Both the position numbers and the translations under genes were made by a program. A stretch of 45,093 nucleotides of DNA, from the NCBI GenBank assembly GCA_025937235.1, contig JAICRU010000015.1, positions 1-45,093 of the forward strand, in the 5' to 3' direction. Origin of the DNA: Acidimicrobiia bacterium. GTDB taxonomy: Bacteria; Actinomycetota; Acidimicrobiia; Spongiisociales; ZC4RG35. Positions 3,703 to 41,235 of this stretch are shown here, piece after piece. Positions within the stretch are counted from its first letter, which is position 1. Every line of letters starts with the position of its first letter. The notes under the pieces are model-generated. The model was not told the origin of the DNA, made no database searches, and saw only the letters and a program-made list of their open reading frames with translations.

Positions 3703-5298
3703 CTACTTCTTCTTCTTGAGGTCTCCCAGGATCTGCTGGGAGGCGAAACGCCCGGGAGCGCCCATCACACAGCCGCCAGGGTGGGTCCCCGAACCACACT
3801 GGTAGTAGCCCTCGATCGGGGTCCGGTACTGGTTCCAGCCCGGGGCCGGTCTGAAGAAGAACATCTGCGGGGCGAGGAACTCGCCGGCGAAGATGTTGCC
3901 CTCGGTCAAGCCGACCACCCGCTCGATGTCGAGGGGGGTCACCACCTCTCGGTGCAGCACCAAGTCGGAGAAGCCGGGGAAGAAACCCTCCAAGGTCTTC
4001 TGCACCCTGTCGCCGAAACGGTCGCGCTCCTCGTCCCAGTCACCGTTCTTGAGGTGATAGGGGGCGTACTGGATGAAACAGGACATGACTGCCTTCCCCG
4101 GTGGAGCCATGTCGGGATCGACATTGGACTGGATGCAGCCGTCGATGTAGGGCTTCTGCGAGTACCACCCGTATTTGGCGTCGTCGTAGGCCCGCTCCAG
4201 ATAGTCGAGGGACGGCCCCATGTTGACGAAGCCGCGGTACTGGTCCGACCTGCCCTCGAGACCTGGGTAGGTGGGGTTGGCGTCGAGGGCGAAGTTGACC
4301 TTCGCCGACGTCCCCTGGAACTTGAACCGTCTGATGTTGTCGACAAGGTCGCTGGGTAACTCTCGTGGGTCGACCAGGTCCATGAAGGTGCGCCGCGGGT
4401 CCACCGCCGAGACGACGGTTTTCGCTTGCAGCTCGGTGCCGTCCTCCAGCACGACCCCGGTGGCCCGGCCGTTCTTCGTCACCACGTGGTCGACCGGCGA
4501 CTCGAGCCGGATCTCGACGCCGAAAGACTCGGCGGCGCGGGCCAGGACCTGGGTGAACCCACCGTTGCCACCCTTGTGGAAGGCCCAGGCTCCATACGCC
4601 CCGTCGTGCTCTCCGAAGGAGTGATAGAGGAGGACCAGCCCCGATCCCTGGGAACGCGGCCCCACCTTGGTCCCGATGATCCCAGACGACGCATGGAGGC
4701 CTTGCATGAGCTCGGACTCGAAGTAGTCCTCCAGGATGTCTGCCGCACTCCCGGTCAGGAGTCGGATCATGTCGTGGAGGACGCCGGGAGGGAGGTCGGC
4801 GAGATAGGAGCCGATGGCCGCCATGCGAGCCCGCTCCTCGGGGTCCTTCGAGGTGATGTCGGGGGGGATCGAATCCATCAATGGCCGGATGGCATGGACT
4901 ACCTGCTCCATCATGTGGCCGTAGGCGTCGTAGGCATCGGCGTCGTGGGGCGAGTGGCGGGCGATCTCGTGGTGGTTCTCGTTCTTGTCCTGTCCAAGCA
5001 GGAGATATTCGCCGTCTTCGGTGGGGGCGAAGGTCGAGGGCATCAACAATGGCATGAACCCGTGCTTGGTCAGCTCGAGCTCATGGATGATCTCGGGACG
5101 GAGGAGACTCAGTGCATAGGAGAACGTCGTGAAGCTGAAGCCCGGGTAGAGCTCCTCGGTGATGGCGGCGCCACCGACCAGATGGCGTCGCTCGAGGATC
5201 ACGGTGTCCAGCCCTGCCTTGGCCAGGTAGGACCCGTTGACCAGGCCGTTGTGGCCGCCGCCGATGACGATGGCGTCGTACTTCTTCTTCACTGCCAT
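3703..5298 (-). CDS. FAD-dependent oxidoreductase, phytoene-desaturase/PYROXD2-like
   Basis: 531 aa. The N-terminal Rossmann FAD motif is clear: YDAIVIGGGHNGLVNGSYLAKAGLDTVILE (GGGHNG at 13-18), then RHLVGGAA. The C-terminal FAD-contacting segment YQCGSGTHPGGCVMGAPGRFAS is also present. Both are typical of the NAD(P)/FAD-dependent amine-oxidase-fold group containing phytoene desaturases and PYROXD2. There is no carotenoid gene nearby, so a carotenoid role is unlikely. The gene starts 7 bp after the stop of the GcvT-like gene, so the two form an operon. In this context the likely substrate is a small amine or methylated amine whose C1 unit the GcvT-like partner could take, but that is inference. 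Confidence 0.8.
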   Translation of the reverse strand: MAVKKKYDAIVIGGGHNGLVNGSYLAKAGLDTVILERRHLVGGAAITEELYPGFSFTTFSYALSLLRPEIIHELELTKHGFMPLLMPSTFAPTEDGEYLLLGQDKNENHHEIARHSPHDADAYDAYGHMMEQVVHAIRPLMDSIPPDITSKDPEERARMAAIGSYLADLPPGVLHDMIRLLTGSAADILEDYFESELMQGLHASSGIIGTKVGPRSQGSGLVLLYHSFGEHDGAYGAWAFHKGGNGGFTQVLARAAESFGVEIRLESPVDHVVTKNGRATGVVLEDGTELQAKTVVSAVDPRRTFMDLVDPRELPSDLVDNIRRFKFQGTSAKVNFALDANPTYPGLEGRSDQYRGFVNMGPSLDYLERAYDDAKYGWYSQKPYIDGCIQSNVDPDMAPPGKAVMSCFIQYAPYHLKNGDWDEERDRFGDRVQKTLEGFFPGFSDLVLHREVVTPLDIERVVGLTEGNIFAGEFLAPQMFFFRPAPGWNQYRTPIEGYYQCGSGTHPGGCVMGAPGRFASQQILGDLKKKK

Positions 5299-6533: not shown

Positions 6534-6562
6534 ACTGTAACCAGGGATGGCTGAATCGTCAT
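6534..6562 (-). promoter_or_regulatory. Candidate sigma-70-type promoter for the GcvT-FAD operon
   Basis: Minus strand: -35 ATGACG (6562-6557), 17-bp spacer, -10 TACAGT (6539-6534), giving a predicted start near 6527 and a short leader before the ATG at 6505. The -35 lies inside the palindrome 6551-6566, so a protein bound there should block it. Confidence 0.45.
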
Positions 6563-6566
6563 TCAG
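6551..6566. promoter_or_regulatory. Operator copy 1: palindrome CTGAATCGTCATTCAG
   Basis: Matches 14 of 16 bases of the consensus CTGAATGGTCGTTCAG. Perfect outer arms CTGAAT/ATTCAG. It is located between the divergent GcvT-FAD operon (start 6505) and the dipeptide-type ABC operon (start 6673), so it could control both. A weaker half-copy, CTGAATGG, occurs at 6654-6661 next to the ABC Shine-Dalgarno. Confidence 0.75.
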
Positions 6567-16362: not shown

Positions 16363-16378
16363 TTGAACGGCGGTTCAG
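16363..16378. promoter_or_regulatory. Operator copy 2: palindrome TTGAACGGCGGTTCAG
   Basis: On the minus strand it reads CTGAACCGCCGTTCAA, 12 of 16 bases of the consensus, with symmetric core TGAAC-N4-GTTCA. It sits between the CocE-type gene (stop overlaps the site) and the Rieske gene start at 16349, so it would control the Rieske/sarcosine-oxidase pair independently of the hydrolase. Weakest of the seven copies by base match, but symmetric. Confidence 0.6.
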
Positions 16379-18387: not shown

Positions 18388-19620
18388 ATGCCTAGCCTCG
18401 CCGATCTCATGACCACCACCGAAAGACATCAGGTCGTGGTGGTGGGGGCCGGTATCGCGGGAATGGTGGCGGCACGTCGCCTCGCCGATCTCGGGCTGGA
18501 TGTCGTCGTCCTCGAGGGTCGAGACCGGGTCGGCGGTCGCCTCTGGTCGCATCGTCTTCCCAACGGAGAGATCGTCGAGCTCGGTGGTGAGTGGATCTCC
18601 ACTGGACAGAAGGCAGTGATGGGCCTGGTCGACGAGCTCGGGCTCGTCCCGATCGATACCGGCTTGGATTTCATCTCCAGGGACCCCGTCGGCGGGCCGC
18701 AACTGCCGACCTCCCAACATGCCCGTCTTGCCGAAGCCCTGGCCCGGCGTATGAGCCGGATCGGTGAGGAAGCGCTGTCATCGATGACGGCGGCGGAGCT
18801 GCTCGACGGCCTCGCCGGCACGGGGCCGGTCATGAAAGTCGTGCGCTCCCGACTTCAGGGGACGGCGGGAGCGCCACTGCACTGGATCGCGGCGGCAGAG
18901 ATAGGCGAGGAGTTCGGTATTGGCGATGAGGGGCGATATGTCAGGATCGAAGGTGGCAATGACAACCTCGTCAGAAGCCTCGGCGACGGTCTCGCTCTCC
19001 GTCATGGCTGTGTCGTCGACACCATTCGTCAGGACGCGCGGGCAGTCCACGTATTCGCCGGCGACGAGGAGCACGTCGGGTTGGCCGTGGTGCTCGCCGT
19101 GCCGCTCGCGGTCCTTGCCACCCTTCGCTTCGAACCGGCCCTCCCCTCGGCCGTGGCCCTGCCCATCGCAAGCCTGAGGATGGGCTCGGGGGCCAAGGTG
19201 GCGATCGCAACTCAGGCTGCACCCGATCTGTTCCGGAGACAAGACATGGACATCCCAGCCTGGTATTGGACGGGGCTGAGCCAGACCGGTGCGGTGAGAA
19301 GAGCGATCACCGCCTTTGCCGGCTCGGAGACGGGTGTCTCGGGGCTCCTCGGCGATGCGATGGGACGACTGCGGCGGGCCGCACCGGAATGCGACCTGGT
19401 CGGAGAGCCGGTCGTGGTCGACTGGACCGCCGACCCGCTGGCGGGGGGCTGTTACTCGGTCATCGGTCCCGGCCAGCGCCGGGCCCTCGCATCGCTTGCC
19501 GCCCCCATCGGGCGTCTCCATCTGGCCGGGGAGCACGTCAACGGGAGTGGCACAATCGACGGAGCGATCCGGACCGGGGAGGATGCAGCTCGCTCGGTCT
19601 CCCGCTTCTCCGTTTTCTGA
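18388..19620 (+). CDS. Flavin-containing amine oxidase
   Basis: 410 aa from ATG 18388 (or 403 aa from ATG 18409); the long open frame further upstream is antisense to the hydrolase and is rejected. FAD-binding motif VVVVGAGIAGMVAARRLADLGLDVVVLE (GAGIAG at 20-25), then RDRVGGRLWS. The C-terminal LAGEHVNGSGTIDGAIRTGEDAARSV is the second flavin-contacting segment of the monoamine-oxidase fold. Such enzymes oxidise primary or secondary amines (for example putrescine) to aldehydes. The next genes are aldehyde and acyl-CoA dehydrogenases, which fits an amine to aldehyde to acid to acyl-CoA order. Its stop codon lies inside operator copy 3. Confidence 0.85.
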   Translation: MPSLADLMTTTERHQVVVVGAGIAGMVAARRLADLGLDVVVLEGRDRVGGRLWSHRLPNGEIVELGGEWISTGQKAVMGLVDELGLVPIDTGLDFISRDPVGGPQLPTSQHARLAEALARRMSRIGEEALSSMTAAELLDGLAGTGPVMKVVRSRLQGTAGAPLHWIAAAEIGEEFGIGDEGRYVRIEGGNDNLVRSLGDGLALRHGCVVDTIRQDARAVHVFAGDEEHVGLAVVLAVPLAVLATLRFEPALPSAVALPIASLRMGSGAKVAIATQAAPDLFRRQDMDIPAWYWTGLSQTGAVRRAITAFAGSETGVSGLLGDAMGRLRRAAPECDLVGEPVVVDWTADPLAGGCYSVIGPGQRRALASLAAPIGRLHLAGEHVNGSGTIDGAIRTGEDAARSVSRFSVF

Positions 19621-19632
19621 ACGACCATTCAG
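19617..19632. promoter_or_regulatory. Operator copy 3: palindrome CTGAACGACCATTCAG
   Basis: Its reverse complement is the consensus CTGAATGGTCGTTCAG itself. It overlaps the amine-oxidase stop and lies about 54 bp before the aldehyde dehydrogenase start. Downstream are TACCGT (19642-19647, TANNNT-type -10), with TGAACG inside the palindrome at -35 distance, and the GAGGAGG Shine-Dalgarno (19673-19679). Bound protein would cover the -35. A second small palindrome ACGGT-GGT-ACCGT (19635-19647) follows. Confidence 0.78.
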
Positions 19633-22827: not shown

Positions 22828-24018
22828 TCAGGTAACCCTTTCTCGCAGCTCTCGGGTGGGGACCGTTGGCACCACGAGACCCTGGCCGAGGTAGGCGTGG
22901 GCCATGATGCCGAGGAACTGATAGACGGTGCCCTCCCACCCCGACAGGGGACCCGGCCGGTAGCCGCGGTTCTTGATTCCCCGCATCACCGACTCACATG
23001 CCGCCCAGTCCTCGCGGTTGGTGATGTCCCAGAAGTCGACCGCATACGCGGGGTCGAACCCTTCGACTTCGAAGGCCTCGGGCGCGAACAGCCAGGAGCA
23101 ATCGACGTGGGTTTGATCGATCCCGATCGGGGTCAGACGATGGGTCATGACGTAGTCGGGGTGCAGCGAGAGCAACAAGTTGGGGATCACGGTCAGGTAC
23201 CAAACCTGACGCGCCGGCTTGCCGTCCACCTTCCTGAAGTTGACCCCCTTGGACGAGCCGTCGAGTGACATGGTCACCGCATGATCCTTGAGGTCCATCG
23301 TCCCACCGCACCACATCCCGGTGGGCACGTGGTCATAACCGCTGTCGGGTGGGGTGACCTCACACAGCTCGGGGTGGATCGACGAGCAGTGGTAGCACTC
23401 GTTGTAGTTCTCGATGATGATCTTCCAGTTGGCGTCGACGACATAGGAGTGTGTCGCCGCGGTGACCAGGCGCTCGGTCTCATACGGTCCAGTGATCTCT
23501 GCGAGATTCCCGAAATGGCTTTCAATCGCCGGTGCCGTGCCCGACAGGTCGATCCACACCCAGCCCCCGTAGACGGCCACCCCGAGATCGACGAGGGGAT
23601 AGTCGGCGGTGTCGAAGTCGTCGCTCATCGTGAATCGGGGGGCGGTTCGCAGCGACCCGTCGAATCGATAGGACCAGCTGTGATAGGGGCAGCGGATCTG
23701 GCGAGAATCGAACGCGGCGCCGATCGGGGCCAACTCGTGGCCCCGGTGACGGCAGACGTTGGAGAAAGCGCGCAATGATCCATCGCGGTCCCGGCTCAGC
23801 AGCACTCCTTCGCCGGCGACGGCCACGGCACGCAGTTGTCCCGGTGCGACCAGCTCGTCGAGACGACCCACACAGGTCCACGTCGACTGCCACAGGTTCT
23901 CCTGCTCCCAGGCGAGGACGTCGGGGGAGAGGTACGCCTCAGCCGGGAATGTGAGGCTCGACCCGAACGAGTCGAGGACTCTCATCACCTGGTCCTGGTC
24001 CAACGGTGCCGGGTTCAT
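22828..24018 (-). CDS. Second Rieske non-heme iron oxygenase, alpha subunit (GbcA/CntA-like)
   Basis: 396 aa from ATG 24018, preceded by GGAGAG; a longer in-frame extension to 24228 crosses the promoter palindrome and is rejected. Rieske ligands Cys89/His91 (VCRHRGHEL) and Cys110/His113 (CPYHSWSY). Iron-site motif ENYNECYHCSSIHPEL with His210 and His215. It shares the same NYNECYHC..HPEL core with the other Rieske protein in this window but is otherwise clearly divergent, so it is likely a paralogue with a different substrate. No reductase is adjacent. Divergent from the aminotransferase/PotA operon, with a shared operator. Confidence 0.87.
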   Translation of the reverse strand: MNPAPLDQDQVMRVLDSFGSSLTFPAEAYLSPDVLAWEQENLWQSTWTCVGRLDELVAPGQLRAVAVAGEGVLLSRDRDGSLRAFSNVCRHRGHELAPIGAAFDSRQIRCPYHSWSYRFDGSLRTAPRFTMSDDFDTADYPLVDLGVAVYGGWVWIDLSGTAPAIESHFGNLAEITGPYETERLVTAATHSYVVDANWKIIIENYNECYHCSSIHPELCEVTPPDSGYDHVPTGMWCGGTMDLKDHAVTMSLDGSSKGVNFRKVDGKPARQVWYLTVIPNLLLSLHPDYVMTHRLTPIGIDQTHVDCSWLFAPEAFEVEGFDPAYAVDFWDITNREDWAACESVMRGIKNRGYRPGPLSGWEGTVYQFLGIMAHAYLGQGLVVPTVPTRELRERVT

Positions 24019-24051
24019 CCGATTCTCTCCTGCCGCCGCTGCAAGGTCAGT

Positions 24052-24077
24052 GTATCCTGAACGACGGGTCAGGATAC
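24052..24077. promoter_or_regulatory. Operator copy 4 within a 9-bp inverted repeat carrying a -10 element in each arm
   Basis: Arms GTATCCTGA (24052-24060) and TCAGGATAC (24069-24077), spacer of 8 bp. The inner 16-mer 24057-24072 matches 13 of 16 bases of the consensus on the minus strand. Each arm contains TATCCT (TANNNT): plus strand 24053-24058 and minus strand 24076-24071. Predicted starts are thus adjacent (near 24065 and 24064), for the aminotransferase (ATG 24095) and the Rieske oxygenase (ATG 24018) respectively. One bound repressor would mask both. Confidence 0.7.
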
Positions 24078-24094: not shown

Positions 24095-25459
24095 ATGTCC
24101 TCCGTGGGTGCGCAAGTCTCGGCTCTCGATGACTTGATCGCAAGAGAGCGGCAGAGTTTCCTCGACAGGGCTCCCAGGGCCACCGAGATGGCCGGGACGG
24201 CCGCCAGGTCCTTGGCAGGGGGCGTCACCTCCAGCTGGCAGATCTCCGATCCTCAGCCGATCTGGATCGACCGCGGTCTCGGGTCGAGGGTCTGGGACGT
24301 CGACGGGAACGAGTACATCGACCTCCACGGCGGCTACGGCGCCATGCTGGCCGGTCACGCTCACCCGGCGGTGGTGGCCGCCGTCTCGGAGCGGGTGCGC
24401 AAGGGCACCCACTTCGCTCAGCCGACTGCCGACGCCATCGTCGTGGCAGAGGAGCTCTCCGACCGTTACGGCTTCCCGCTCTGGAGGTTCGGCAACTCCG
24501 GCACCGAGGCGACGATGGACGCCATCCATCTCATGCGGGCCATCACCGGAAGGGACCTGATCATCAAGTTCGAGGGGGGCTATCACGGCCATCACGACTC
24601 GGTGATGGTCTCGGTGTGGAACGAAGAAGGCCTGGGCGCAGAGTCGAGCCCGAAGAGTGTCCCTGCCGGAAGCGGGATTCCCCAGGCCATCGTCGATCTC
24701 GCCCTGATCGCCAGCTTCAACCATCTCGAATCGGTGAGCCGTCTCTTCGAGGAGCACGAGGGAGAGGTGGCCGGAGTCATCGTCGAGCCGGTCCTCCAGA
24801 ACTGTGGTGTCCTGCTTCCCGAGCCGGGTTTCCTTCAGGGTCTTCGCGAATTGACCCTCAGACACGGTGCCCTCCTCACTTTCGACGAGGTCAAGACCGG
24901 GCTCACGGTTGGGAAGGGCGGAGCGACGCGCCGATTCGGCGTGCAGCCAGACATCGTCTGTCTCGCCAAATCGCTGGGCGGAGGGCTGCCCATCTCCGCA
25001 ATCGGTGGCACGGCGGAGGTGATGGGCCACATCGTCGACGGGAGCTACGAGCAGGTTGGGACATTCAACGGGAACCCGTTGTCGCTCGCCGCGGCTCGGG
25101 CGATGCTCGAGGAGGTGATGGTGGGGGAGACATACGAGCACCTCGATCAGCTCCAGACCCGCATGGAGAAAGGGTCCAACGAGGTGATCGGTCGTCACGG
25201 ACTCGTTGCCCATGTGGCCACCGCAGGCGCCAAGGGAAGTGTCATCTACTGCGCCGAGCCGATGCGGACCTATCGCGATTTCCTCGCTGTGGACGGGCGT
25301 TACGCCCAGGCGGCATGGCTCTATCAATACAATCGGGGCGTGTTCCTGCCGCCATGGGGCAAGGGCGAGCAGTGGCTGCTCTCTGTCCAGCACACGGTCG
25401 AGGACGTCGACCGTTATCTGGAGACACTGGACGGTTTCGCAGGCGTCATCTCTGCATGA
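24095..25459 (+). CDS. Class III pyridoxal-phosphate aminotransferase (GSA-aminomutase-like)
   Basis: 454 aa from ATG 24095; AAGGAAGG at 24081-24088 gives a six-base spacing. PLP-enzyme features: RFGNSGTEATMDAIHLMRAITGR, KFEGGYHGHHDSVMVS, DEVKTG at 264-269 and the Schiff-base Lys292 in CLAKSLGGGLPI. The sequence resembles glutamate-1-semialdehyde aminomutases (GVTSSWQ, GTFNGNPLSLAAARAML). No haem biosynthesis gene is nearby, and the gene is 23 bp from a PotA-like ATPase, so an omega-aminotransferase acting on an imported amine or amino acid is more likely. This is inference from context. Confidence 0.83.
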   Translation: MSSVGAQVSALDDLIARERQSFLDRAPRATEMAGTAARSLAGGVTSSWQISDPQPIWIDRGLGSRVWDVDGNEYIDLHGGYGAMLAGHAHPAVVAAVSERVRKGTHFAQPTADAIVVAEELSDRYGFPLWRFGNSGTEATMDAIHLMRAITGRDLIIKFEGGYHGHHDSVMVSVWNEEGLGAESSPKSVPAGSGIPQAIVDLALIASFNHLESVSRLFEEHEGEVAGVIVEPVLQNCGVLLPEPGFLQGLRELTLRHGALLTFDEVKTGLTVGKGGATRRFGVQPDIVCLAKSLGGGLPISAIGGTAEVMGHIVDGSYEQVGTFNGNPLSLAAARAMLEEVMVGETYEHLDQLQTRMEKGSNEVIGRHGLVAHVATAGAKGSVIYCAEPMRTYRDFLAVDGRYAQAAWLYQYNRGVFLPPWGKGEQWLLSVQHTVEDVDRYLETLDGFAGVISA

Positions 25460-25482: not shown

Positions 25483-26601
25483 ATGAGTGGCGTCGTCGAA
25501 CTGGTCGATCTTGCCAAGTACTACGGGGAGAACCCGGCCGTCGACCACATCGACCTTCGCATCGAGAGCGGCGAGTTCTTCTCTCTGCTCGGGCCGTCGG
25601 GATGCGGGAAGACCACCACCCTGCGCTTGATCGCGGGTTTCGAGCGGCCTGACAGCGGGGCCATTCTCATCGATGGCGTCGACCAAGCGGGGACCCCACC
25701 TCACAAGCGGCCGGTCAACACCGTCTTTCAGAGTTATGCCCTGTTCCCCCACATGAACGTCGCGGACAATGTCGCCTTCGGGCTCGCCTATCAGGACGTG
25801 CCCAAGGCGGAGCGGAACGGTCGGGTGGCGGAGGCCCTCGATCGGGTCCACCTGAGCGGGATGGAGAGCCGGAAACCCACCCAGCTCTCAGGCGGGCAGC
25901 AGCAGAGAGTGGCCCTGGCCAGATCGTTGGTGCTGAGCCCGTCGGTTCTCCTGCTCGACGAGCCTCTGGGAGCTCTCGACGCCAAGCTGCGCAAGTCGCT
26001 CCAGGTCGAGCTCAAGCGGCTCCAGGAGGACCTGGAGATCACCTTCATCTATGTCACCCACGATCAGGAAGAGGCGATGACGATGTCCGACAGGATCGCG
26101 GTGATGACCGAAGGCACCGTCGAGCAGACGGGCACGCCTGCCGAGATCTACGAGACGCCGACCTCGAGCTACATCGCCGACTTCCTCGGGATCTCGAATC
26201 TGATGTATGCCGAAGCCGTTGGCCCGGGACGGGTCGCTCTGGCCGGTTCAGAGCTCGACTGCGTGGACAAGGAGGGCGCCAGCGGCGAGGTGACCGTCAG
26301 CATCCGCCCCGAGAGAGTGCAGATCCATCCACCCGATTTCGCCGGCGACAATGTCCTCACCGGAGAGATCGAACGCGTCGTGTTCGCAGGCCCATTGCTC
26401 AACGTCCTGGTGACGGTCGAGGAGGTGGGCACCATCCAGGTGACGGTCCCCAACCAGGGAGGCGCGTTCCCTTGGGACTGGCCCGACAAGGTAGCCCTCC
26501 ACCTGCCAGCCGAGTCCCTACGTATCGTGTCCGAGACGGGGACCGCCACCGTGGAGCTCGAAGCCGATCTGGAGGCCGCGGGGGCTGATCAGGACGAGTG
26601 A
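25483..26601 (+). CDS. potA: ABC transporter ATP-binding protein, PotA-like
   Basis: 372 aa. Walker A GPSGCGKTT at 37-45, signature LSGGQQQR, Walker B LLLDEPLGALDAKLR, then VTHDQEEAMTMSDRIAVMTEGTVEQTGTPAEIYETP and a C-terminal TOBE-type domain. This is the PotA/spermidine-putrescine class. Its membrane partners are not adjacent: PotC, PotB and PotD-like genes are at 28438-31590 on the other strand. It follows the aminotransferase by 23 bp in one operon. Its 3' end overlaps the convergent WYL regulator gene by 13 bp. Presumably powers the Pot-type importer. Confidence 0.88.
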   Translation: MSGVVELVDLAKYYGENPAVDHIDLRIESGEFFSLLGPSGCGKTTTLRLIAGFERPDSGAILIDGVDQAGTPPHKRPVNTVFQSYALFPHMNVADNVAFGLAYQDVPKAERNGRVAEALDRVHLSGMESRKPTQLSGGQQQRVALARSLVLSPSVLLLDEPLGALDAKLRKSLQVELKRLQEDLEITFIYVTHDQEEAMTMSDRIAVMTEGTVEQTGTPAEIYETPTSSYIADFLGISNLMYAEAVGPGRVALAGSELDCVDKEGASGEVTVSIRPERVQIHPPDFAGDNVLTGEIERVVFAGPLLNVLVTVEEVGTIQVTVPNQGGAFPWDWPDKVALHLPAESLRIVSETGTATVELEADLEAAGADQDE

Positions 26602-27539
26602 ACGGCGATGAGGCGTCGCCCGATCCGCGTCAGCTCCTCACCCAACTCGTCCGGTGAGTCGACCTCGAACTCCCAGGGGAGTCCGAGCAGATACCGCGCC
26701 AACCACTGCACGTCATCGGCGCCGATCACCAGCCGGGTCATCTCGGGTCCGAGGGATTCGAGTGCGCCGATCGTCGGAGGGATCATCTGTGTCGCCCGTT
26801 CCATGGATGTCGCCATCCGAATCGTGGCGCGCAGGGCGTAGGCATCGATGGCCACCCCGCGCTGCACCATCTCTACCGGGTCGGGCTCAGGCCGGCGGGC
26901 CGAGCGCATCCCCGTTGCGACCGGGTCGGTGAGACGGTCGAGGCGAAATGTGCGCCAGTCGTCACGATCGAGGTCAAACCCGACCAGGTACCAGCGACGT
27001 CCGGTGTGCACCAGACGCAGCGGCTCGACGTGTCTCTCGGTGACCCGGCCCTCGACGTCGGTGTAGGTGAAACGCATCCGCTGTCTGGTGCGTGCTGCCG
27101 AAGCGGCGACCGCCAGCGAGGCGTGGTCGACCGAAGAAGGAGACGTTGGCAGTGTCGAGACGGTTGCCTCCGATATGTCCTCGAGCTGGGCCCGCAACTT
27201 GGGAGGTAACACGTGCTCGAGCTTGGACAGGGCAGAGAGCGACGCATCCTCGAGGCCTCCGACCGCGGTCGTCGCTGCGACTCGGAGACCCAATGCCACA
27301 GCCAACGCCTCCTCGTCGTCGAGGAGAAGCGGCGGGAGCTTGCCGCCCTGCCCGAGACGGTAACCGCCCCCCGGCCCGGCCACCGCTTCGACCGGGTACC
27401 CGAGAGTGCGCAGGCGGGTGATATCTCGGCGTACCGTCCGCGTGGTCACTTCGAGTCGTCGAGCCAGCTCCTCTGCGGTCCAGTCGATGCGCCCTTCGAG
27501 CAGACCGAGGAGCTTGAGCAAACGTTCCGCGCTGTCCAT
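26589..27539 (-). CDS. WYL-domain transcriptional regulator (HTH-WYL-WCX, YafY-like)
   Basis: 316 aa from ATG 27539 (MDSAERLLKLLGLLEGRIDWTAEELARRLEVTTRTVRRDITRLRTLGYPVEAVAGPGGGYRLG), a DeoR/HTH_11-type winged helix at residues 1-60. The WYL domain is visible in RRWYLVGFDLDRDDWRTFRLDRL, and a WCX-type tail follows. Such regulators sense small ligands or nucleic acids and usually act next to their own gene. A perfect 10-bp palindrome lies 22 bp upstream. Divergently arranged with a small protein and a GNAT gene, which are probably its targets. It has no copy of the 16-bp amine-regulon palindrome, so it forms a separate unit inserted between pot genes. Confidence 0.88.
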   Translation of the reverse strand: MDSAERLLKLLGLLEGRIDWTAEELARRLEVTTRTVRRDITRLRTLGYPVEAVAGPGGGYRLGQGGKLPPLLLDDEEALAVALGLRVAATTAVGGLEDASLSALSKLEHVLPPKLRAQLEDISEATVSTLPTSPSSVDHASLAVAASAARTRQRMRFTYTDVEGRVTERHVEPLRLVHTGRRWYLVGFDLDRDDWRTFRLDRLTDPVATGMRSARRPEPDPVEMVQRGVAIDAYALRATIRMATSMERATQMIPPTIGALESLGPEMTRLVIGADDVQWLARYLLGLPWEFEVDSPDELGEELTRIGRRLIAVHSS

Positions 27540-27560
27540 CTTCCTCGATTCTCGTGGTCT

Positions 27561-27583
27561 ATGCGGACAGATCCTGTCCGCAT
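27561..27583. promoter_or_regulatory. Perfect palindromic operator for the WYL regulator
   Basis: Inverted repeat ATGCGGACAG-ATC-CTGTCCGCAT: 10-bp arms, 3-bp spacer, no mismatch. It sits between the divergent WYL regulator (27539) and the small ORF (27624), immediately upstream of TAGTGT (27591-27596, TANNNT-type -10 for the rightward gene). Palindromes of the GGACA-N-TGTCC type are typical of YafY-like WYL regulators. Confidence 0.7.
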
Positions 27584-27623
27584 CTGATCGTAGTGTCGGG
27601 GGGTAGTCGAGGAAGGACACTCC

Positions 27624-27818
27624 ATGATGCATTGGGCCGGTTTCGAGATGATCAGGCACCTGGATGAAGAGCTTCGACAGGTCTCACTCCGCAAGTTCTG
27701 GTGGCGGCACGTCCAGCCCGACCCCGAGCCGGAGCCGTCGGAGCGAATCTCAGAAGCCGAGATAATCGAGCTGGTCTTCGGGCCGCATTGCGAGGCGGAG
27801 GGCTCGATCGGTGCCTGA
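27624..27818 (+). CDS. Small protein of unknown function (64 aa)
   Basis: 64 aa, from ATG 27624 (ATG 27627 is an alternative), with GAGGAAGG seven bases upstream. Sequence MMHWAGFEMIRHLDEELRQVSLRKFWWRHV, then an acidic, Pro-rich tail (PDPEPEPSERISEAEIIELVFG). No signal or membrane helix. I do not recognise a family. It is a real candidate because it has a promoter, operator and ribosome binding site, and its stop overlaps the start of the GNAT gene by 8 bp. Possibly a small partner of the WYL/GNAT unit; function unknown. Confidence 0.6.
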   Translation: MMHWAGFEMIRHLDEELRQVSLRKFWWRHVQPDPEPEPSERISEAEIIELVFGPHCEAEGSIGA

Positions 27819-31619: not shown

Positions 31620-31635
31620 CTAAACCGCCATTCAG
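31620..31635. promoter_or_regulatory. Operator copy 5: palindrome CTAAACCGCCATTCAG
   Basis: On the minus strand CTGAATGGCGGTTTAG, 13 of 16 bases of the consensus. It overlaps TAGTGT (31622-31617, minus strand), a TANNNT-type -10 for potDBC, and lies just beyond the stop of the TetR gene (31648). This gives the pot operon its own controlled promoter even if some transcript reads in from tetR. Confidence 0.68.
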
Positions 31636-31647
31636 GGTTCGCGTCGC

Positions 31648-32259
31648 TCAAACACGGGTGTTGAGTGCCATCTCGACGAAAGCAATCGCCAGCGTTCTCA
31701 TCCTTGCCGCGTCGACCGTCGGGTCACGGAGCATGACCTCGATGGCGAGGCCGTCTAGAAGCGCAGCCAGCTGGATGGCGAAGTCTGACGAGTCGATGTC
31801 GTCGAACTCGCCGTCGGCGATGCCCTCCTCGACGACGGCCGAGATCTGATTTCGCCAGGATTCGTCGAGACGGGCCCGGGCGGCGGCCAGGGTTGGATCG
31901 TGACGAGACATCTCCCATGCCGCCGGCCAAAGCACCCATCCGTCCGGCTCTCCGTCTCCCCGAGATGCCTTGGGACAGCTGGCCTCTATGAGGATCGCCA
32001 GTTTGGCGGCTGCAGACCCCGCCCTGTCGAGCTCGCCCTTGACCGCGTCGTGGAACACCTGATCCTGATAGACGAGTGCTTCGGTGAGGAGGGCCGCTTT
32101 CGAGGGAAAGTAGTAGAGGATCAGTGCCGGGCTGGCCCCAATGTGATCGGCGATGTCGGCGATGCGAGTCTCGCACAGACCTCGGTCGGCAATGGTGGCA
32201 CTGGTGGCTGCGAGGATCTCGGTGCGTCTGGTCTCGGTCAGGCTCGGTCTGGGGCTCAC
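31648..32259 (-). CDS. TetR-family transcriptional regulator, candidate master repressor of the amine regulon
   Basis: 203 aa from GTG 32259. Residues 7-55 form the TetR helix-turn-helix: TETRRTEILAATSATIADRGLCETRIADIADHIGASPALILYYFPSKAALLTEAL, including the family hallmark YYFPSKxxLL. The C-terminal helical ligand-binding domain (about 60-200) ends DPTVDAARMRTLAIAFVEMAL. It is the only TetR gene in the window. It lies between two copies of the 16-bp palindrome (31620 and 32318), the usual place for a self-regulated repressor. By context the effector may be a CoA ester or an amine. The link to all seven sites is inference. Confidence 0.88.
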   Translation of the reverse strand: MSPRPSLTETRRTEILAATSATIADRGLCETRIADIADHIGASPALILYYFPSKAALLTEALVYQDQVFHDAVKGELDRAGSAAAKLAILIEASCPKASRGDGEPDGWVLWPAAWEMSRHDPTLAAARARLDESWRNQISAVVEEGIADGEFDDIDSSDFAIQLAALLDGLAIEVMLRDPTVDAARMRTLAIAFVEMALNTRV

Positions 32260-35226: not shown

Positions 35227-36762
35227 TCAAGCTGGAGGGCTGCCAGTCGTCGATGCCTCACCCGTCGTCTCGGCTACCTTCGTCGTGCCGTAACCCTCGG
35301 CTTCGGGATGGCCGTGCTCACCTCTGGTGAGGGCGAACTCCTCTTCGGGAGACAGGACCAGCTTGTTCCTTCCCGACAACCCGAAGTAGAGAAGACCAAG
35401 CACGAACCAAATCGCCACCCCGTAGACCCCGGGCAGATATGCATCGTTCAAGAACAGCGCGATCAGCGCCACCAGCGCGATCACGCCGGCAACCGCCGCA
35501 CCCGCGACCCCGACCGGGCTCCGGTAGGGGCGCTCGATGTTCGGCATCTTGCTGCGGAGGCGAATGAAAGCCAGCATCTGCATGAAGTATGAGATCACGG
35601 CTCCGAAGACGGCCATGCTGAGCAGGGCTGCCCCGGCCGTGCCCTCGTATTGGCTGTCGAGCAGGAACGCCAGCGCGTAGCCCACGATCGCACCCAACAG
35701 GAGCGCCACCCAGGGTGTCTTCCGCTTCCCGTGGGTGATCGACATCCAGTGTGGGAAATACCCGGCCCGGGACAGCGAATAGATGTTCCGCCCATAGGCG
35801 TAGATGATGGTGTGGAAGCTGGCGATCAACCCGGTGAGGGCGAACAACCCGAGGATTGCCGCGCTCTCCGTTCCCAGGATCGCCCTGAAGCCGTCCAGTA
35901 GAGGCTCACCCGAAACCCTGATCTCCTCGGCCCCGTTGACACCGGTGTTGAGGAACAGGACCCCCATACCGGTGATGACCAGCGTCCACAGGCCCCACAT
36001 GGTCCCCCTTGGCACGTCCCGCTTGGGGTCCATCGACTCCTCGGCGGCGAGGGGTAGCTCCTCGATGGCCAGGTAGAACCAGATGGCGAAGGGCAAGGCG
36101 GCGAAGATACCTCCGATTCCGAAGGGGAGGAACGAGGTCCCACCCGCCTCCGCGGTGATGTTGGTCAGGTTGGCGGCGTCGAAGTTGGGGATTGCCAGGA
36201 CGAAGAACACCGCCAGCACCGCCAACGAGATGAGGCAGATGGCGACAGAGAAGCGCATCGTGGCCTCGATCCCAATGATGTTGAGCCCGACGAAGACGGC
36301 GTAGAAGATGAGCCACCACCAGGGAAGGCCGAGCTCGAGCCCGAAGAGGTCGTTGAACACGCTCTGTGCGTAGATCGAGGCGAAGTAGACCACCACCACC
36401 GGAGTGACGACATATTCGATGTTCTCGGCGAGACCGGTGATGAACCCTCCCCACGGCCCCATGGCGGAGCGTGAGAACGAGTACGCCCCCCCGGTGTGGG
36501 GGAGTGCAGGTGACATCTCCGCGATCGAGTAGCACAAACCGATGTACATGATCGTGATGACGATCGTGGCGATGAAGAGGCCACCGAAGCCGCCGACGTC
36601 GAGACCGAAGTTCCAACCCGAGAAGTCGCCCGAGATGACTGCGGCCACGCCCAGCGCCCACAGCATCCACACCCCGGCGTGACGTTTCAGGCCTCTCTGC
36701 TCGAAGTACTGCTGGTCGACGTCTCGGTAGGTAACCGAGCCGACCTTGCGTTCGGTCGACAT
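35227..36762 (-). CDS. APC-superfamily permease, ethanolamine permease-like
   Basis: 511 aa from ATG 36762, with GGGAGG eight bases upstream; the much longer frame to 37272 runs antisense through the GS-like gene and is rejected. About 12 membrane helices. The first is preceded by LKRHAGVWMLWALGVAAVISGDFSGWNFGLDVGGFGGL, which closely follows the ethanolamine permease subgroup (VISGDF.GWNFGL). Then IAEMSPALPHTGGAYSFSRSAMGPWGGFITGLAENIEY, typical of the APC family. The polar tail has about 40 residues. It likely imports ethanolamine or a similar amino compound by proton symport. Divergent from the GS-like operon, with operator copy 7 between them. Confidence 0.85.
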   Translation of the reverse strand: MSTERKVGSVTYRDVDQQYFEQRGLKRHAGVWMLWALGVAAVISGDFSGWNFGLDVGGFGGLFIATIVITIMYIGLCYSIAEMSPALPHTGGAYSFSRSAMGPWGGFITGLAENIEYVVTPVVVVYFASIYAQSVFNDLFGLELGLPWWWLIFYAVFVGLNIIGIEATMRFSVAICLISLAVLAVFFVLAIPNFDAANLTNITAEAGGTSFLPFGIGGIFAALPFAIWFYLAIEELPLAAEESMDPKRDVPRGTMWGLWTLVITGMGVLFLNTGVNGAEEIRVSGEPLLDGFRAILGTESAAILGLFALTGLIASFHTIIYAYGRNIYSLSRAGYFPHWMSITHGKRKTPWVALLLGAIVGYALAFLLDSQYEGTAGAALLSMAVFGAVISYFMQMLAFIRLRSKMPNIERPYRSPVGVAGAAVAGVIALVALIALFLNDAYLPGVYGVAIWFVLGLLYFGLSGRNKLVLSPEEEFALTRGEHGHPEAEGYGTTKVAETTGEASTTGSPPA

Positions 36763-36792
36763 TGACGTACCTCCCTTTGGTGCGTGGCAGCG

Positions 36793-36798
36793 AGAATA
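36793..36798 (-). promoter_or_regulatory. Candidate -10 of the permease gene
   Basis: TATTCT on the minus strand (36798-36793), about 30 bp upstream of the ATG at 36762 and followed by the GGGAGG ribosome binding site. No convincing -35. Operator copy 7 lies 42 bp further upstream. Confidence 0.35.
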
Positions 36799-36839
36799 GG
36801 AATGCGTCGACGCCCGATGCCGTCCGTGAGGCCCTTTTT

Positions 36840-36855
36840 TTGACTGGTCGTTCAG
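36840..36855. promoter_or_regulatory. Operator copy 7: palindrome TTGACTGGTCGTTCAG
   Basis: 14 of 16 bases of the consensus. Located in the 159-bp region between the divergent permease (36762) and GS-like operon (36922). It follows a run of seven T (36835-36841). A TACTCT element (36880-36885) 25 bp to the right is a candidate -10 for the rightward operon, with AAAGGAGA before ATG 36922. Confidence 0.7.
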
Positions 36856-36921
36856 GGGCCGCGATTGACCGATTCGGCCTACTCTCCTGGGCACCGACCG
36901 AAGGTCAAAGGAGACCGGCGC

Positions 36922-38301
36922 ATGGGCGAACTGCGGGGCATGATCAGCATGGAGGAACTGGAGTCCCTCGTCGAATCGGGCGAGGTCGACACCGTGGTGA
37001 CCGCCTTCACCGACCACTACGGTCGGGTGCACGGGAAGCGCTTCACGGCAGAGCACTTCCTCGATGAGATCTTCGACCACGGCACCCACGGCTGTGACTA
37101 CCTGCTCACGGTGGACATGGAGATGGAGCCGGTGCCGGGCTACACCTATGCCAGCTGGGACCTCGGCTACGGCGACTTCCACATGGTCCCCGACCTGGGC
37201 ACACTTCGCGTGGCCACCTGGCTCGATCGAACCGCCTTCGTGCTCTGTGACCTGGAGGACCCCAGGACCCACGACCTGGTCACGGTGGCGCCGCGCACGA
37301 TCCTGCGCCGTCAGCTGGAGGCAGCGGCCGAATCGGGCTACACGGCGAAGGGAGCCTCAGAGCTCGAATTCTTCCTTTTCGAGGATTCCTATCGTCAGGC
37401 TGCTGAGAAGAAGTACGACGGGATGCGGCCCGCCGGCTGGTACATCGAGGACTATCACCTCCTCCAGGGCACCCGGGAGGAGTACTACAACGCCGAAGTG
37501 AGACGACACCTCTCGGCGTCAGGGATCCCCGTCGAGAACTCGAAGGGGGAGTGGGGCCGCGGCCAACACGAGATGAACATCCGCTTCGCCGAGCTCCTGG
37601 GCATGGCCGACCGCCACACGATCATGAAACAGGCGATGAAGGAGATCGCCGACGGGATCGGGGTCTCGGTCACGTTCATGGCCAAGCCGGACATGACGGA
37701 GGCCGGTTCGTCGTGTCACCTCCACGTCAGCCTCTGGTCGGGGGACGACAACACCTTTCCCGGCGATCACGAATTCGGTCCGGTGCATGGCTCGGACGAG
37801 TTCCGCTGGTTCCTGGGTGGGTGGATGGCCCACGTCCCCGAGCTCATGGTGTTCTACGGCCCCACCATCAACTCATACAAGCGGTATCAGGACGGGTCCT
37901 GGGCGCCGACCCGGCTCGGCTGGAGCTACGACAACCGCACCGCCGGGTTCCGGGTCGTGGGCCACGATCAGAGCCTGCGCATCGAGTGCCGGATCCCCGG
38001 GGCCGACACCAACCCCTATCTGGCTTACGCCGCAGTGCTCGCCGCCGGGCTCGACGGCATCGCCAACGAGATCGAGGCGCCCGAGATCTTTCTCGGCGAC
38101 GTCTATCAGGCCCAGGAGCTGCCCCGGGTGCCCTATACGCTCAGAGAGGCGACCGAGCTCTTCGCATCGTCGGAGTTCGTCAAGCAGGCGTTCGGATCCG
38201 AGGTCCAGGAGCACTACACCCATTTCTTCGAGACCGAGCAAAAGGCATTCGACAACTCGGTGACCGACTGGGAGCGCTGGCGCTACTTCGAGCGGATATG
38301 A
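36922..38301 (+). CDS. Glutamine-synthetase-like gamma-glutamyl ligase (PuuA/GlnA4-like)
   Basis: 459 aa from ATG 36922; AAAGGAGA lies eight bases upstream, so an earlier ATG at 36865 is less likely. GS-fold motifs are present: GRGQHEMNIRF, MAKPDMTEAGSSCHLHVSLW, NSYKRYQDGSWAPTRLGWSYDNRTAGFRV, and RIECRIPGADTNPYLAYAAVLAAG. The adenylylation-loop region of GlnA-I enzymes is not recognisable. Members of this subgroup attach gamma-glutamate to amines: PuuA to putrescine, Streptomyces GlnA4 to ethanolamine. The ethanolamine-type permease next door and the downstream SDR-ALDH-amidase order favour ethanolamine or another amino alcohol. First gene of a four-gene operon. Confidence 0.87.
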   Translation: MGELRGMISMEELESLVESGEVDTVVTAFTDHYGRVHGKRFTAEHFLDEIFDHGTHGCDYLLTVDMEMEPVPGYTYASWDLGYGDFHMVPDLGTLRVATWLDRTAFVLCDLEDPRTHDLVTVAPRTILRRQLEAAAESGYTAKGASELEFFLFEDSYRQAAEKKYDGMRPAGWYIEDYHLLQGTREEYYNAEVRRHLSASGIPVENSKGEWGRGQHEMNIRFAELLGMADRHTIMKQAMKEIADGIGVSVTFMAKPDMTEAGSSCHLHVSLWSGDDNTFPGDHEFGPVHGSDEFRWFLGGWMAHVPELMVFYGPTINSYKRYQDGSWAPTRLGWSYDNRTAGFRVVGHDQSLRIECRIPGADTNPYLAYAAVLAAGLDGIANEIEAPEIFLGDVYQAQELPRVPYTLREATELFASSEFVKQAFGSEVQEHYTHFFETEQKAFDNSVTDWERWRYFERI

Positions 38302-39077
38302 GCGGCCGTCTCCAGGACAGGGTCGCGCTGATCACCGGCGCCGGTTCCGGGATCGGGAGGGAGACCTCGCTCCTGTTTGCGGCAGAGGGGGCCCGGGTGC
38401 TCGCCGTGGATCTGAACCGCGAGGCGGTCGAGGAGACGGTGGAGAAGGTTCGGGCGGCGGGAGGAGAAGCAACGGCGCATCTGGCCGACGTCTCCGCCAC
38501 CGAACAGAGCGAGGCCATGGTGACGGCGGCGGAGACCGCTTACGGGCGTCTCGACGTCATGTTCAACAACGCCGGGATCATGCACTCCGACGACGACGAT
38601 GCGGTGTCCACCGATCTCGAGGTGTGGGACCTCACCATGGACGTCAATGCCAAAGGGGTTTTCCTGGGCTGCAAGTACGGCATTCCTGCGCTACGCCGGG
38701 CGGGTGGCGGATCGATCATCAACACCGCCTCGTTCGTGGCCCTGCTCGGGGCGGCTACGCCCCAGGTGGCCTACACCGCGTCGAAAGGGGCGGTCCTGGC
38801 CATGACCCGCGAGCTGGCGGTGGTGCATGCCCGGGAGAACATCAGGGTCAATGCTCTCTGCCCGGGCCCGCTTCGCACCGAGTTGCTGATGAAGTTCCTC
38901 GACACCGACGAGAAGAAGGAGCGCCGTCTGGTCCACATACCGATGGGGCGCTTCGGAGAGGCGGCAGAGATGGCCAAGGCGGCCCTCTGGCTCGCCTCCG
39001 ACGAGTCCTCCTACGTAACGGGGACCGAGTTCGTGGTCGACGGCGGGATCACCGCGGCCTACGTCACTCCGGAGTGA
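38298..39077 (+). CDS. Short-chain dehydrogenase/reductase (SDR)
   Basis: 259 aa from ATG 38298 (ATGA overlap with the GS-like stop). Cofactor motif TGAGSGIG at 13-20, Asp38 after the second strand (LAVDLN), which favours NAD, and NNAGIM at 90-95. Catalytic Ser145, Tyr159 and Lys163 (YTASK). C-terminal LASDESSYVTGTEFVVDGGITAAY, as in classical FabG-like SDRs. In the Puu pathway this position is taken by the amine oxidase PuuB. An alcohol dehydrogenase here would fit oxidation of gamma-glutamylethanolamide at its hydroxyl. Coupled to the ALDH by a GTGA overlap. Confidence 0.88.
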   Translation: MSGRLQDRVALITGAGSGIGRETSLLFAAEGARVLAVDLNREAVEETVEKVRAAGGEATAHLADVSATEQSEAMVTAAETAYGRLDVMFNNAGIMHSDDDDAVSTDLEVWDLTMDVNAKGVFLGCKYGIPALRRAGGGSIINTASFVALLGAATPQVAYTASKGAVLAMTRELAVVHARENIRVNALCPGPLRTELLMKFLDTDEKKERRLVHIPMGRFGEAAEMAKAALWLASDESSYVTGTEFVVDGGITAAYVTPE

Positions 39078-40504
39078 GCACCCACCATCCCTTCGTCGAC
39101 GGGGAGCCACATGCCGGCTCCGGTGAGGAGGCGCCGATTCACAATCCGGCCACCGGTGAGCAGATCGGGTCGGTGAGCCGGGCCGATCGGGCCGATGTCG
39201 GACGGGCGGTCGAGATCGCCCGCCATCGTTTCGACGAGGGGATATGGCGCAAGGCACCTGTCCGACGGCGAAGAGATGTCCTCCGGGCAATCGCCGATCT
39301 GATCCGGGCTGATCAGGAACGCCTCGCCGGGCTGGAGTCGGCCAACGCCGGCAAGCCCATCACCGCGGCCAGAGGCGAGATTGGCGCGGTGGCGACCACC
39401 TTCGACTACTACGCAGGAGCAGTTGACAAGTTCCACGGCCAGACCATCCCCGGGAACGCCAACGGGACACTGATGACCTTTCGTGAGCCGATAGGAGTGT
39501 GTGCCGCCATCACTCCTTGGAACTTCCCGATGCTCATCCTGGGTTGGAAGGTGGCTCCCGCCCTGGCCATGGGCAACTCGATCGTGGTCAAGCCGGCAGA
39601 GTTGACCCCCCTCACCGCTTTGGCCCTGGCCGAGTTGGCCCTGCAGGCCGGGCTCCCGCCGGGCGTGCTCAATGTCGTCACCGGTCGAGGGTCCGAGGCC
39701 GGTGAGGCATTGGTTCGCCATCCCGACGTGCGGAAGATCTCCTTCACAGGCTCGACTGTGGTCGGCGCCGGGGTGATGGCGGCGGCCGCCCCCGACATCA
39801 AACGGGTCTCGCTCGAGCTGGGCGGGAAGTCGGCCGGGATCGTGTTCGCCGACACCGACCTCGACACCTGTGTCGAATCGTCGATCTTCGCCGTCTACGA
39901 CAATGCCGGTCAGGACTGCTGCGCCCGGAGCCGGCTCCTGGTGGAGGAGTCGATAGCCGATGAGTTCGTCGGAAGGTTCGTCGAGCGGGCCGGGGCCCTG
40001 ATGATAGGGGACACGGCCGACGAGACCACTGAGATGGGCCCGCTGATCACACCGGCTCAGCGAGAGTCGGTGGAGCGGTACATCCAGCTCGGGATCGACG
40101 AGGGGGCGAAGCTCGTCTGTGGCGGGGAGCGCGTCGGCCAGGTTGGGAACTTCCTCTCTCCGGCGGTGTTCACCGACGCCGGCTCGGAGATGAAGATCGT
40201 GCAGGAGGAGATCTTCGGGCCGGTGGTCGCAGTGAGCACCTTCGCCAACGAGGATGAGGCGATGGAGCTCGCCAACGACTCGATCTACGGGTTGTCCGGG
40301 TCGATCTGGACCAGGGACATCGGCCGGGCACTGCGAGTTGCGAGAGGGATGGAAACTGGGATGCTCTCGATCAACTCGTCATCGAGCGTGCACATCGAGG
40401 CCCCTTTCGGCGGGGTGAAGGCCTCCGGCATCGGCCGCGAGCAGGGAATGGCGGCGCTGGAGCATTATTCGGAATACAAGTCGGTCTTCATCGCCAACGA
40501 CTGA
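39074..40504 (+). CDS. Aldehyde dehydrogenase, PuuC/aminobutyraldehyde-dehydrogenase-like
   Basis: 476 aa from GTG 39074, which overlaps the SDR stop (GTGA) and is preceded by CCGGAG. A longer frame to 38624 lies inside the SDR and is rejected. Motifs: TPWNFP at 148-153, catalytic Glu248 (LELGGKSAG), nucleophile Cys282 in NAGQDCCARSR, and EEIFGPVVAVSTF. The NAGQDC form is common in amine-derived aldehyde dehydrogenases. Predicted to oxidise the gamma-glutamylated aldehyde to the acid. It differs clearly from the ALDH at 19686. Confidence 0.9.
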   Translation: MSTHHPFVDGEPHAGSGEEAPIHNPATGEQIGSVSRADRADVGRAVEIARHRFDEGIWRKAPVRRRRDVLRAIADLIRADQERLAGLESANAGKPITAARGEIGAVATTFDYYAGAVDKFHGQTIPGNANGTLMTFREPIGVCAAITPWNFPMLILGWKVAPALAMGNSIVVKPAELTPLTALALAELALQAGLPPGVLNVVTGRGSEAGEALVRHPDVRKISFTGSTVVGAGVMAAAAPDIKRVSLELGGKSAGIVFADTDLDTCVESSIFAVYDNAGQDCCARSRLLVEESIADEFVGRFVERAGALMIGDTADETTEMGPLITPAQRESVERYIQLGIDEGAKLVCGGERVGQVGNFLSPAVFTDAGSEMKIVQEEIFGPVVAVSTFANEDEAMELANDSIYGLSGSIWTRDIGRALRVARGMETGMLSINSSSSVHIEAPFGGVKASGIGREQGMAALEHYSEYKSVFIAND

Positions 40505-40524
40505 CCTCGCGCCAGAATGATCGG

Positions 40525-41235
40525 ATCAAGCTAGGTCTGCTCCTCTGCGACCATGTCCGCCCCGAGCTCATGTCTGTCTCCGGGGACTATCCGGACATGT
40601 TTCGCAGTCTGTTCGAGGGTCACGACGACGTGGAATTGGTCCCCTACGACGCCATCAATGGAGAGATCCCGGCCGACCCTTCGGTGTGTGACGCCTGGAT
40701 CACCACCGGCTCACGACACTCGGTCAACGATGATGAGCCCTGGATCCGCCGTCTGGAGGAGTTCGTCAGGGACGTCGAGGCGGCGGGCGTTCCTTTCGTC
40801 GGCATCTGCTTCGGCCATCAGTTGATCGCCAAGGCGCTCGGGGGCACCGTGGTCGAGTCCGAGCGGGGTTGGGGGATCGGGATCAAGGAGGTCGAGGTCA
40901 GGGACGGTCTCGGGCTTGGCGGCTCGTATCGGATCCTCAACAGCCACCGGGATCAGATCGAGCGGATCCCGCCGGGCGCCGAGGTCCTCGGCTGGAACGA
41001 GGACTGTCCTGTGGCGATGTTGGGCGTGGGTGACAGCATGATCGGCATCCAGGGTCACCCTGAGTTCGAGAAGAGGTACTCGAAGGCCCTGATGGAGATG
41101 CGGAGGGGCAACGTCATCTCGGAGAACATCGTCGCTGCCGGGCTGGCGAGTCTGGACGAAACTCCCGACTCGGCGCTCCTTGCCGACTGGATACTGGGTT
41201 TCGTGAGGAAGCCAAGGATCGAGGAGACCGGATAA
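40525..41235 (+). CDS. Class I glutamine amidotransferase-like hydrolase (PuuD-like role)
   Basis: The first ATG (40570) gives 221 aa, but the frame upstream continues KLGLLLCDHVRPEL from 40528, which looks like the usual first beta strand of these proteins. No ATG, GTG or TTG exists in frame before it; ATC 40525 or CTG 40537 would be needed, so the start is uncertain. Catalytic triad, numbered from ATG 40570: Cys80 in GICFGHQ, and His163 and Glu165 in QGHPEF. No synthetase partner domain is present, so it is a stand-alone gamma-glutamyl hydrolase in type, as PuuD and IpuF are. Predicted to free the product amine acid from its gamma-glutamyl carrier. Last gene of the operon. Confidence 0.8.
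   Translation: MKLGLLLCDHVRPELMSVSGDYPDMFRSLFEGHDDVELVPYDAINGEIPADPSVCDAWITTGSRHSVNDDEPWIRRLEEFVRDVEAAGVPFVGICFGHQLIAKALGGTVVESERGWGIGIKEVEVRDGLGLGGSYRILNSHRDQIERIPPGAEVLGWNEDCPVAMLGVGDSMIGIQGHPEFEKRYSKALMEMRRGNVISENIVAAGLASLDETPDSALLADWILGFVRKPRIEETG

Follow-up and report, generated by a model that had tools for sequence, protein, structure and literature searches.

The window, the whole 45,093-nucleotide stretch of DNA analyzed here, carries an uncharacterized amine-catabolism cluster in which a Rieske oxygenase gene (Rieske-2) and an aminotransferase-potA operon diverge from a shared intergenic region, with gene starts at 24018 (-) and 24095 (+) and the PotA-like gene beginning at 25483, as the initial annotation had described. 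Between them lies a perfect 9-8-9 inverted repeat, the spacer being ACGACGGG (8 bp), and each arm contains TATCCT on the outgoing strand; the complementary arms, the spacer length and the two hexamers were all confirmed by a check of the window sequence. Features of the region and the related sites in the cluster are collected in Table 1. Two further regions of the window are of note. The region 35230-41232 contains an ethanolamine-permease-like transporter (above the NCBIfam cut-off), a glutamine-synthetase-like enzyme, an aldehyde dehydrogenase and a class-I glutamine amidotransferase, a gene set that suggests a gamma-glutamylation route for an amine, and the region 3706-5298 encodes an amine-oxidase-fold protein with its best score against the beta-carotene ketolase CrtO, far below the cut-off.

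Table 1. Genes, repeat arms, predicted operators and candidate promoter elements (window coordinates)
Feature	Position	Strand	Remarks
Rieske oxygenase (Rieske-2) gene	22831-24018	-	glycine-betaine/carnitine-monooxygenase-like
Class-III aminotransferase gene	24095-25459	+	glutamate-semialdehyde-aminomutase-like
PotA-like ABC transporter ATPase gene	25483-26601	+	downstream of aminotransferase
WYL-domain regulator gene	26592-27659		in cluster
BetI-like TetR regulator gene	31651-32259	-	PF13977, PF00440, structure comparison; predicted operator binder
Left arm GTATCCTGA	24052-24060		perfect reverse complement of right arm
Right arm TCAGGATAC	24069-24077		perfect reverse complement of left arm
Predicted TetR operator core CTGAACGACGGGTCAG	24057-24072		inner 16 bp of repeat; YTGAAC-N4-GTTCAR, one mismatch
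Predicted operator	6551-6566		between gcvT-like gene and opp-type ABC operon; two mismatches; counterpart in G018
Predicted operator	16363-16378		upstream of Rieske-1; exact consensus
Predicted operator	19617-19632		upstream of aldehyde dehydrogenase gene
Predicted operator	31620-31635		upstream of Pot-type solute-binding protein gene; two mismatches; counterparts in G019 and G032
Predicted operator TTGAACGACCATTCAG	32333-32318	-	upstream of tetR and divergent CoA-ligase gene
Predicted operator	36840-36855		between ethanolamine-permease-like and glutamine-synthetase-like genes; two mismatches; counterpart in G018
Weak -35-like hexamer CTGCCG	24030-24035	+	17 bp upstream of aminotransferase -10
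Predicted -10 TATCCT, aminotransferase-potA operon	24053-24058	+	overlaps operator edge; regulon-wide rule
Candidate Rieske -10 TATCCT, far arm	24076-24071	-	canonical position of the regulon
Rival Rieske -10 TACACT	24054-24049	-	TA common with + strand -10; TATACT in G139

A perfect 9-bp inverted repeat is by itself nothing rare in this GC-rich window, where 20 such repeats with 3-12-bp spacers (nested ones included) occur compared with 4.3 expected per shuffled window. The expectation falls to 0.2 per shuffled window for perfect 9-bp arms with at least five A/T positions each, and to 0.00 in the window for the full repeat pattern with up to three mismatches allowed. The nine-mer of the left arm occurs in the 3.08-Mb genome at these two arms only, and among 395 genomes of the class the perfect arms are found solely at the Rieske/aminotransferase promoter, in the source genome, in G018 (twice, on two contigs) and in G032. 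Alignment with G032, whose aminotransferase is 75% identical to that of the window, shows a conserved block around the repeat with diverged DNA on either side. A chance palindrome devoid of a regulatory role, which the general richness of the window in 9-bp repeats might suggest, is contradicted by the conservation in G018 and G032 and sits poorly with a core that is common to six other sites upstream of operons; we give it almost no credence. The region of the repeat has no match in Rfam and no terminator-like site was found at the repeat, and an RNA element or terminator was rejected on these grounds. Exact matches to the inverted repeat were also observed at 11 loci on viral contigs.

The core of the repeat belongs to a family of related palindromes of the form YTGAAC-N4-GTTCAR. 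It resembles the site upstream of the cluster tetR and deviates from the palindrome at one position, reading GGGTCAG and not GGTTCAG. Seven such palindromes are present in the 45-kb cluster, all upstream of operons, a total reached for the window after the sites of relatives were added, and the sequence TGAACGACNNNTCA has five exact copies genome-wide, four of them inside the window (p=2e-7) and all upstream of genes. The initial annotation had placed the operator within the inverted repeat. An operator is indeed predicted here; the operator proper corresponds to the inner 16 bp, and the outer TATC/GATA are assigned to the promoter because these bases vary from site to site in the family and G017 and G139 lack the right-hand set. 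An extended palindrome with GTATC arms was considered as the general operator and rejected, as the flanks of 65 sites carry little information besides a TA at -4/-3 and the symmetric arms are missing in G017 and G139. A literature search with the operator half-sites returned unrelated matches only.

Variants of the operator arrangement are seen at other loci. An eighth operator-like site, CTGAACCGTCATTCAG, lies outside the window between divergent genes for an aminotransferase paralogue and an aldehyde dehydrogenase (L034, G000:C60:643-658) with a counterpart in G018 (C39:18834), and going by this site the predicted regulon seems to extend past the window. In G139 (L248, C25) tandem sites at 15531 and 15616, 85 bp apart, are placed upstream of a single gene. 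The operator is asymmetric, TTGACTGANNGTTCAG, at other actinobacterial loci (L073, L076, L077, L079, L080 and L088), with the promoter TA mostly adjoining the GTTCAG/CTGAAC half.

The palindrome is very probably the docking site of one TetR-type repressor, and the best-supported binder of these sites is the TetR encoded in the cluster. The C-terminal domain of this protein is of the BetI type (PF13977, 71.8 bits compared with a cut-off of 27), the N terminus is a TetR helix-turn-helix domain (PF00440) and the palindrome stands upstream of its own gene, features that together point to autoregulation. Most of its orthologues, over an identity range of 36-93%, are likewise preceded by this palindrome. 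For 80 aminotransferase loci from public genomes, scored with up to one mismatch, the palindrome is present in 8 of the 13 with TetR compared with 2 of the 67 without (Fisher p=1.8e-6); the compared loci are partly related, so that the co-occurrence p-values are optimistic and the promoter counts indicative. Rieske-2 orthologues follow the same pattern, with the operator upstream in TetR-bearing genomes and at least four mismatches, scored as absent, in nearly all others; the exception is G010, where a site with one mismatch precedes the Rieske gene, yet no TetR orthologue was detected. A different regulator, for example the WYL-domain protein likewise encoded within the cluster or a protein from outside it, is a distinctly unlikely binder, as the palindrome follows the TetR gene through distant genomes and stands upstream of tetR. 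The WYL gene is confined to its own genus among the loci compared, and its absence from the loci of other genera that were checked led to its rejection as the binder.

The position of promoter signals relative to the operator was surveyed at 65 distinct sites, giving 130 sides. On 38 of the 130 sides the sequence has a TA step at a distance of exactly 2 bp outward from the operator, compared with about 3 at any other offset, and since the operator begins with YT this step completes the motif TANNYT. Taken alone, the position of the TA could reflect either an extension of the operator or a promoter. Where one gene only flanks the operator the TA is found on the upstream side of that gene by 14:1, and TTG is most frequent at 17-18 bp upstream from this TA, with 17 occurrences on the 38 TA sides compared with 3 on 88 others, together indicating that the TA at the edge belongs to a -10 element (TANNYT) overlapping the operator. 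TANNNT is enriched upstream of gene starts (30 compared with 5) in 398 kb of the source genome plus the window. A scan with the plain sigma-70 consensus, which is uninformative for this GC-rich lineage, found nothing. The layout TTG-N17/18-TANNYT, overlapped by two bases with the operator, recurs in actinobacterial lineages, many of them uncultured.

Applied to the repeat, this layout firmly places the predicted -10 of the aminotransferase operon at the left edge of the operator, where the + strand position is kept in all divergent pairs seen and reads TAAACT in G017 and G139. The -10 of the oxygenase is ambiguous. The far-arm TATCCT occupies the canonical position and is conserved in G018 and G032, but G017 and G139, divergent pairs that are more distant, lack it, and on the near side TACACT shares its TA with the + strand element. 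The claim of a -10 for each direction is largely supported, as both arms carry one at the -10 position of the regulon and the aminotransferase element is firm, with the qualification that the oxygenase element has a competitor. A -35-like hexamer was found for neither Rieske candidate, and with two overlapping candidates thus placed the adjacent starts that the initial annotation had proposed become one of two options. Start positions were assigned assuming 7 bp between -10 and start. In the first option the symmetric element would comprise one predicted TetR operator with a -10 on each edge, polymerases setting off from the dyad in opposite directions with starts about 1 bp from each other, an arrangement that we put forward tentatively, at somewhat less than even chances.

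In the second option the operator and TetR are the same and the Rieske gene would use the near-side TACACT, forming a back-to-back bidirectional promoter with starts at 24065 (+) and 24042 (-), about 23 bp apart, and leaving the far-arm TATCCT as a by-product or accessory element; this too is a serious possibility that stops short of an even chance. It is consistent with the conservation of AGTNTANNCT in the source genome, G018, G032 and G139, giving TACACT or TATACT on the - strand, with the loss of the far-arm -10 in G017 and G139, and with 23 bp being one of the common start spacings at bidirectional promoters (PMC12825309). The near-side position is nevertheless unusual for the regulon, given the 14:1 preference of the TA for the upstream side, and it does not account for a far arm that is perfect solely in three sequence variants. 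These variants (the source genome, G018 C55 and G032), all of this one promoter, also stand alone among the 65 sites in having TA to either side of the operator. Once the direction test had given 14:1, the view that the oxygenase is bound to use TACACT was no longer taken as the only reading, and it is kept as the rival.

The explanation that we favor, and consider probable as a whole, is that the repeat acts as a single operator of the BetI-like TetR repressor, a dimer of which would sit on the inner palindrome. The aminotransferase-potA -10 would overlap the left edge of this operator by two bases and its mirror image for Rieske-2 would overlap the right edge; with both in use, the starts would adjoin at the dyad at about 24065 (+) and 24064 (-). 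Both directions would be turned off together because the bound dimer would cover both start sites, and TetR would be freed from the repeat and about six other operators by an amine effector that is probably choline- or betaine-like, turning on the whole cluster. What the sequence itself shows is the repeat, the family of operators and the joint occurrence of that family and the TetR gene, as well as where the -10 and -35 signals lie and which way they point; TetR binding, the effector, the start sites and repression are what we infer. A single predicted operator serving both directions, as initially proposed, is upheld by the TetR-regulon evidence, with the two-sided -10 elements unique to this promoter.

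The initial annotation had left the oxygenase and the aminotransferase operon as either alternatives or a strictly co-repressed pair. Co-repression is favored. With regard to co-regulation or ALTERNATIVES, joint de-repression is the simplest reading, as one dimer would lie over both starts and the remaining operons of the cluster have this operator in front of them as well. Mutual exclusion of polymerases at the repeat is likely from the geometry, but relevance of such exclusion is not required. Competition is unlikely to turn the two directions into true alternatives, one expressed to the exclusion of the other: -10 elements in both arms would make the two polymerase footprints overlap completely, but an operator type common to all operons argues for joint control and leaves the proposal of alternatives unsupported. 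Furthermore, at five Escherichia coli bidirectional promoters that were tested, basal activity does not suffice for polymerases to compete, and competition sets in only after strong activation of one direction (PMC12825309). The isolated repeat becomes part of a regulon open to testing, with one local TetR and seven predicted operators, which gives a predicted control scheme for the cluster, and the symmetric site offers a natural test of two polymerases on one start region co-repressed by one dimer.

The structure model of the TetR (mean pLDDT 86.5) is closest to the solved structures of a Saccharomonospora viridis TetR (PDB codes 4kwa, 4nel, 4jnn and 4ich; Z about 24 (about 23.6), 31% identity), which were determined in the presence of choline and of an N,N-dimethylmethanamine-type ligand. 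The entry titles name neither operator nor regulon, and the function there is putative. The Rieske protein is nearest to demethylase-type monooxygenase and carnitine monooxygenase entries, and together with the choline-type TetR structures this makes an amine effector plausible; choline itself, bound by the closest solved relative, is a lead only. BetI regulons (PMC12442346) share with this cluster the BetI-type C-terminal domain, palindromic operators over promoters, divergent pairs and amine-related targets. They differ in the operator, the published betI box being ATTGACG-CGTCAAT (PMC12442346) compared with YTGAAC-N4-GTTCAR here, and the present cluster has more operators and is without the choline dehydrogenase set. 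The TetR scores 76.4 bits against the curated BetI model TIGR03384, below the cut-off of 201.3, and with this score and an operator unlike the betI box it is described as BetI-like and not filed as BetI.

The nearest precedents for the promoter are the bidirectional promoters of Warman et al., which express divergent genes from overlapping core elements (PMC12825309, PMC10268837) and are defined by divergent starts 7-25 bp apart (PMC10268837). Among them acrR/acrA is a bidirectional promoter with a TetR-family repressor, AcrR (PMC12825309), and so offers an earlier case of a TetR-type repressor acting where two promoters overlap, as predicted here. Opposite-strand -10 elements sharing bases are also present at the repeat, where the + strand TATCCT and the - strand TACACT have TA in common, and the near-side reading with its 23-bp spacing would be an ordinary case of this class. 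The favored reading differs in that the -10 elements lie on both operator edges and point across it; if the twin elements are real, which we hold possible without leaning on it, starts about 1 bp apart would fall outside the defining spacings. Whether this layout holds turns on which of the two Rieske -10 candidates is the real one. Divergent gene pairs under a single operator are known; the unusual part of the arrangement would be that this operator has a -10 at either edge.
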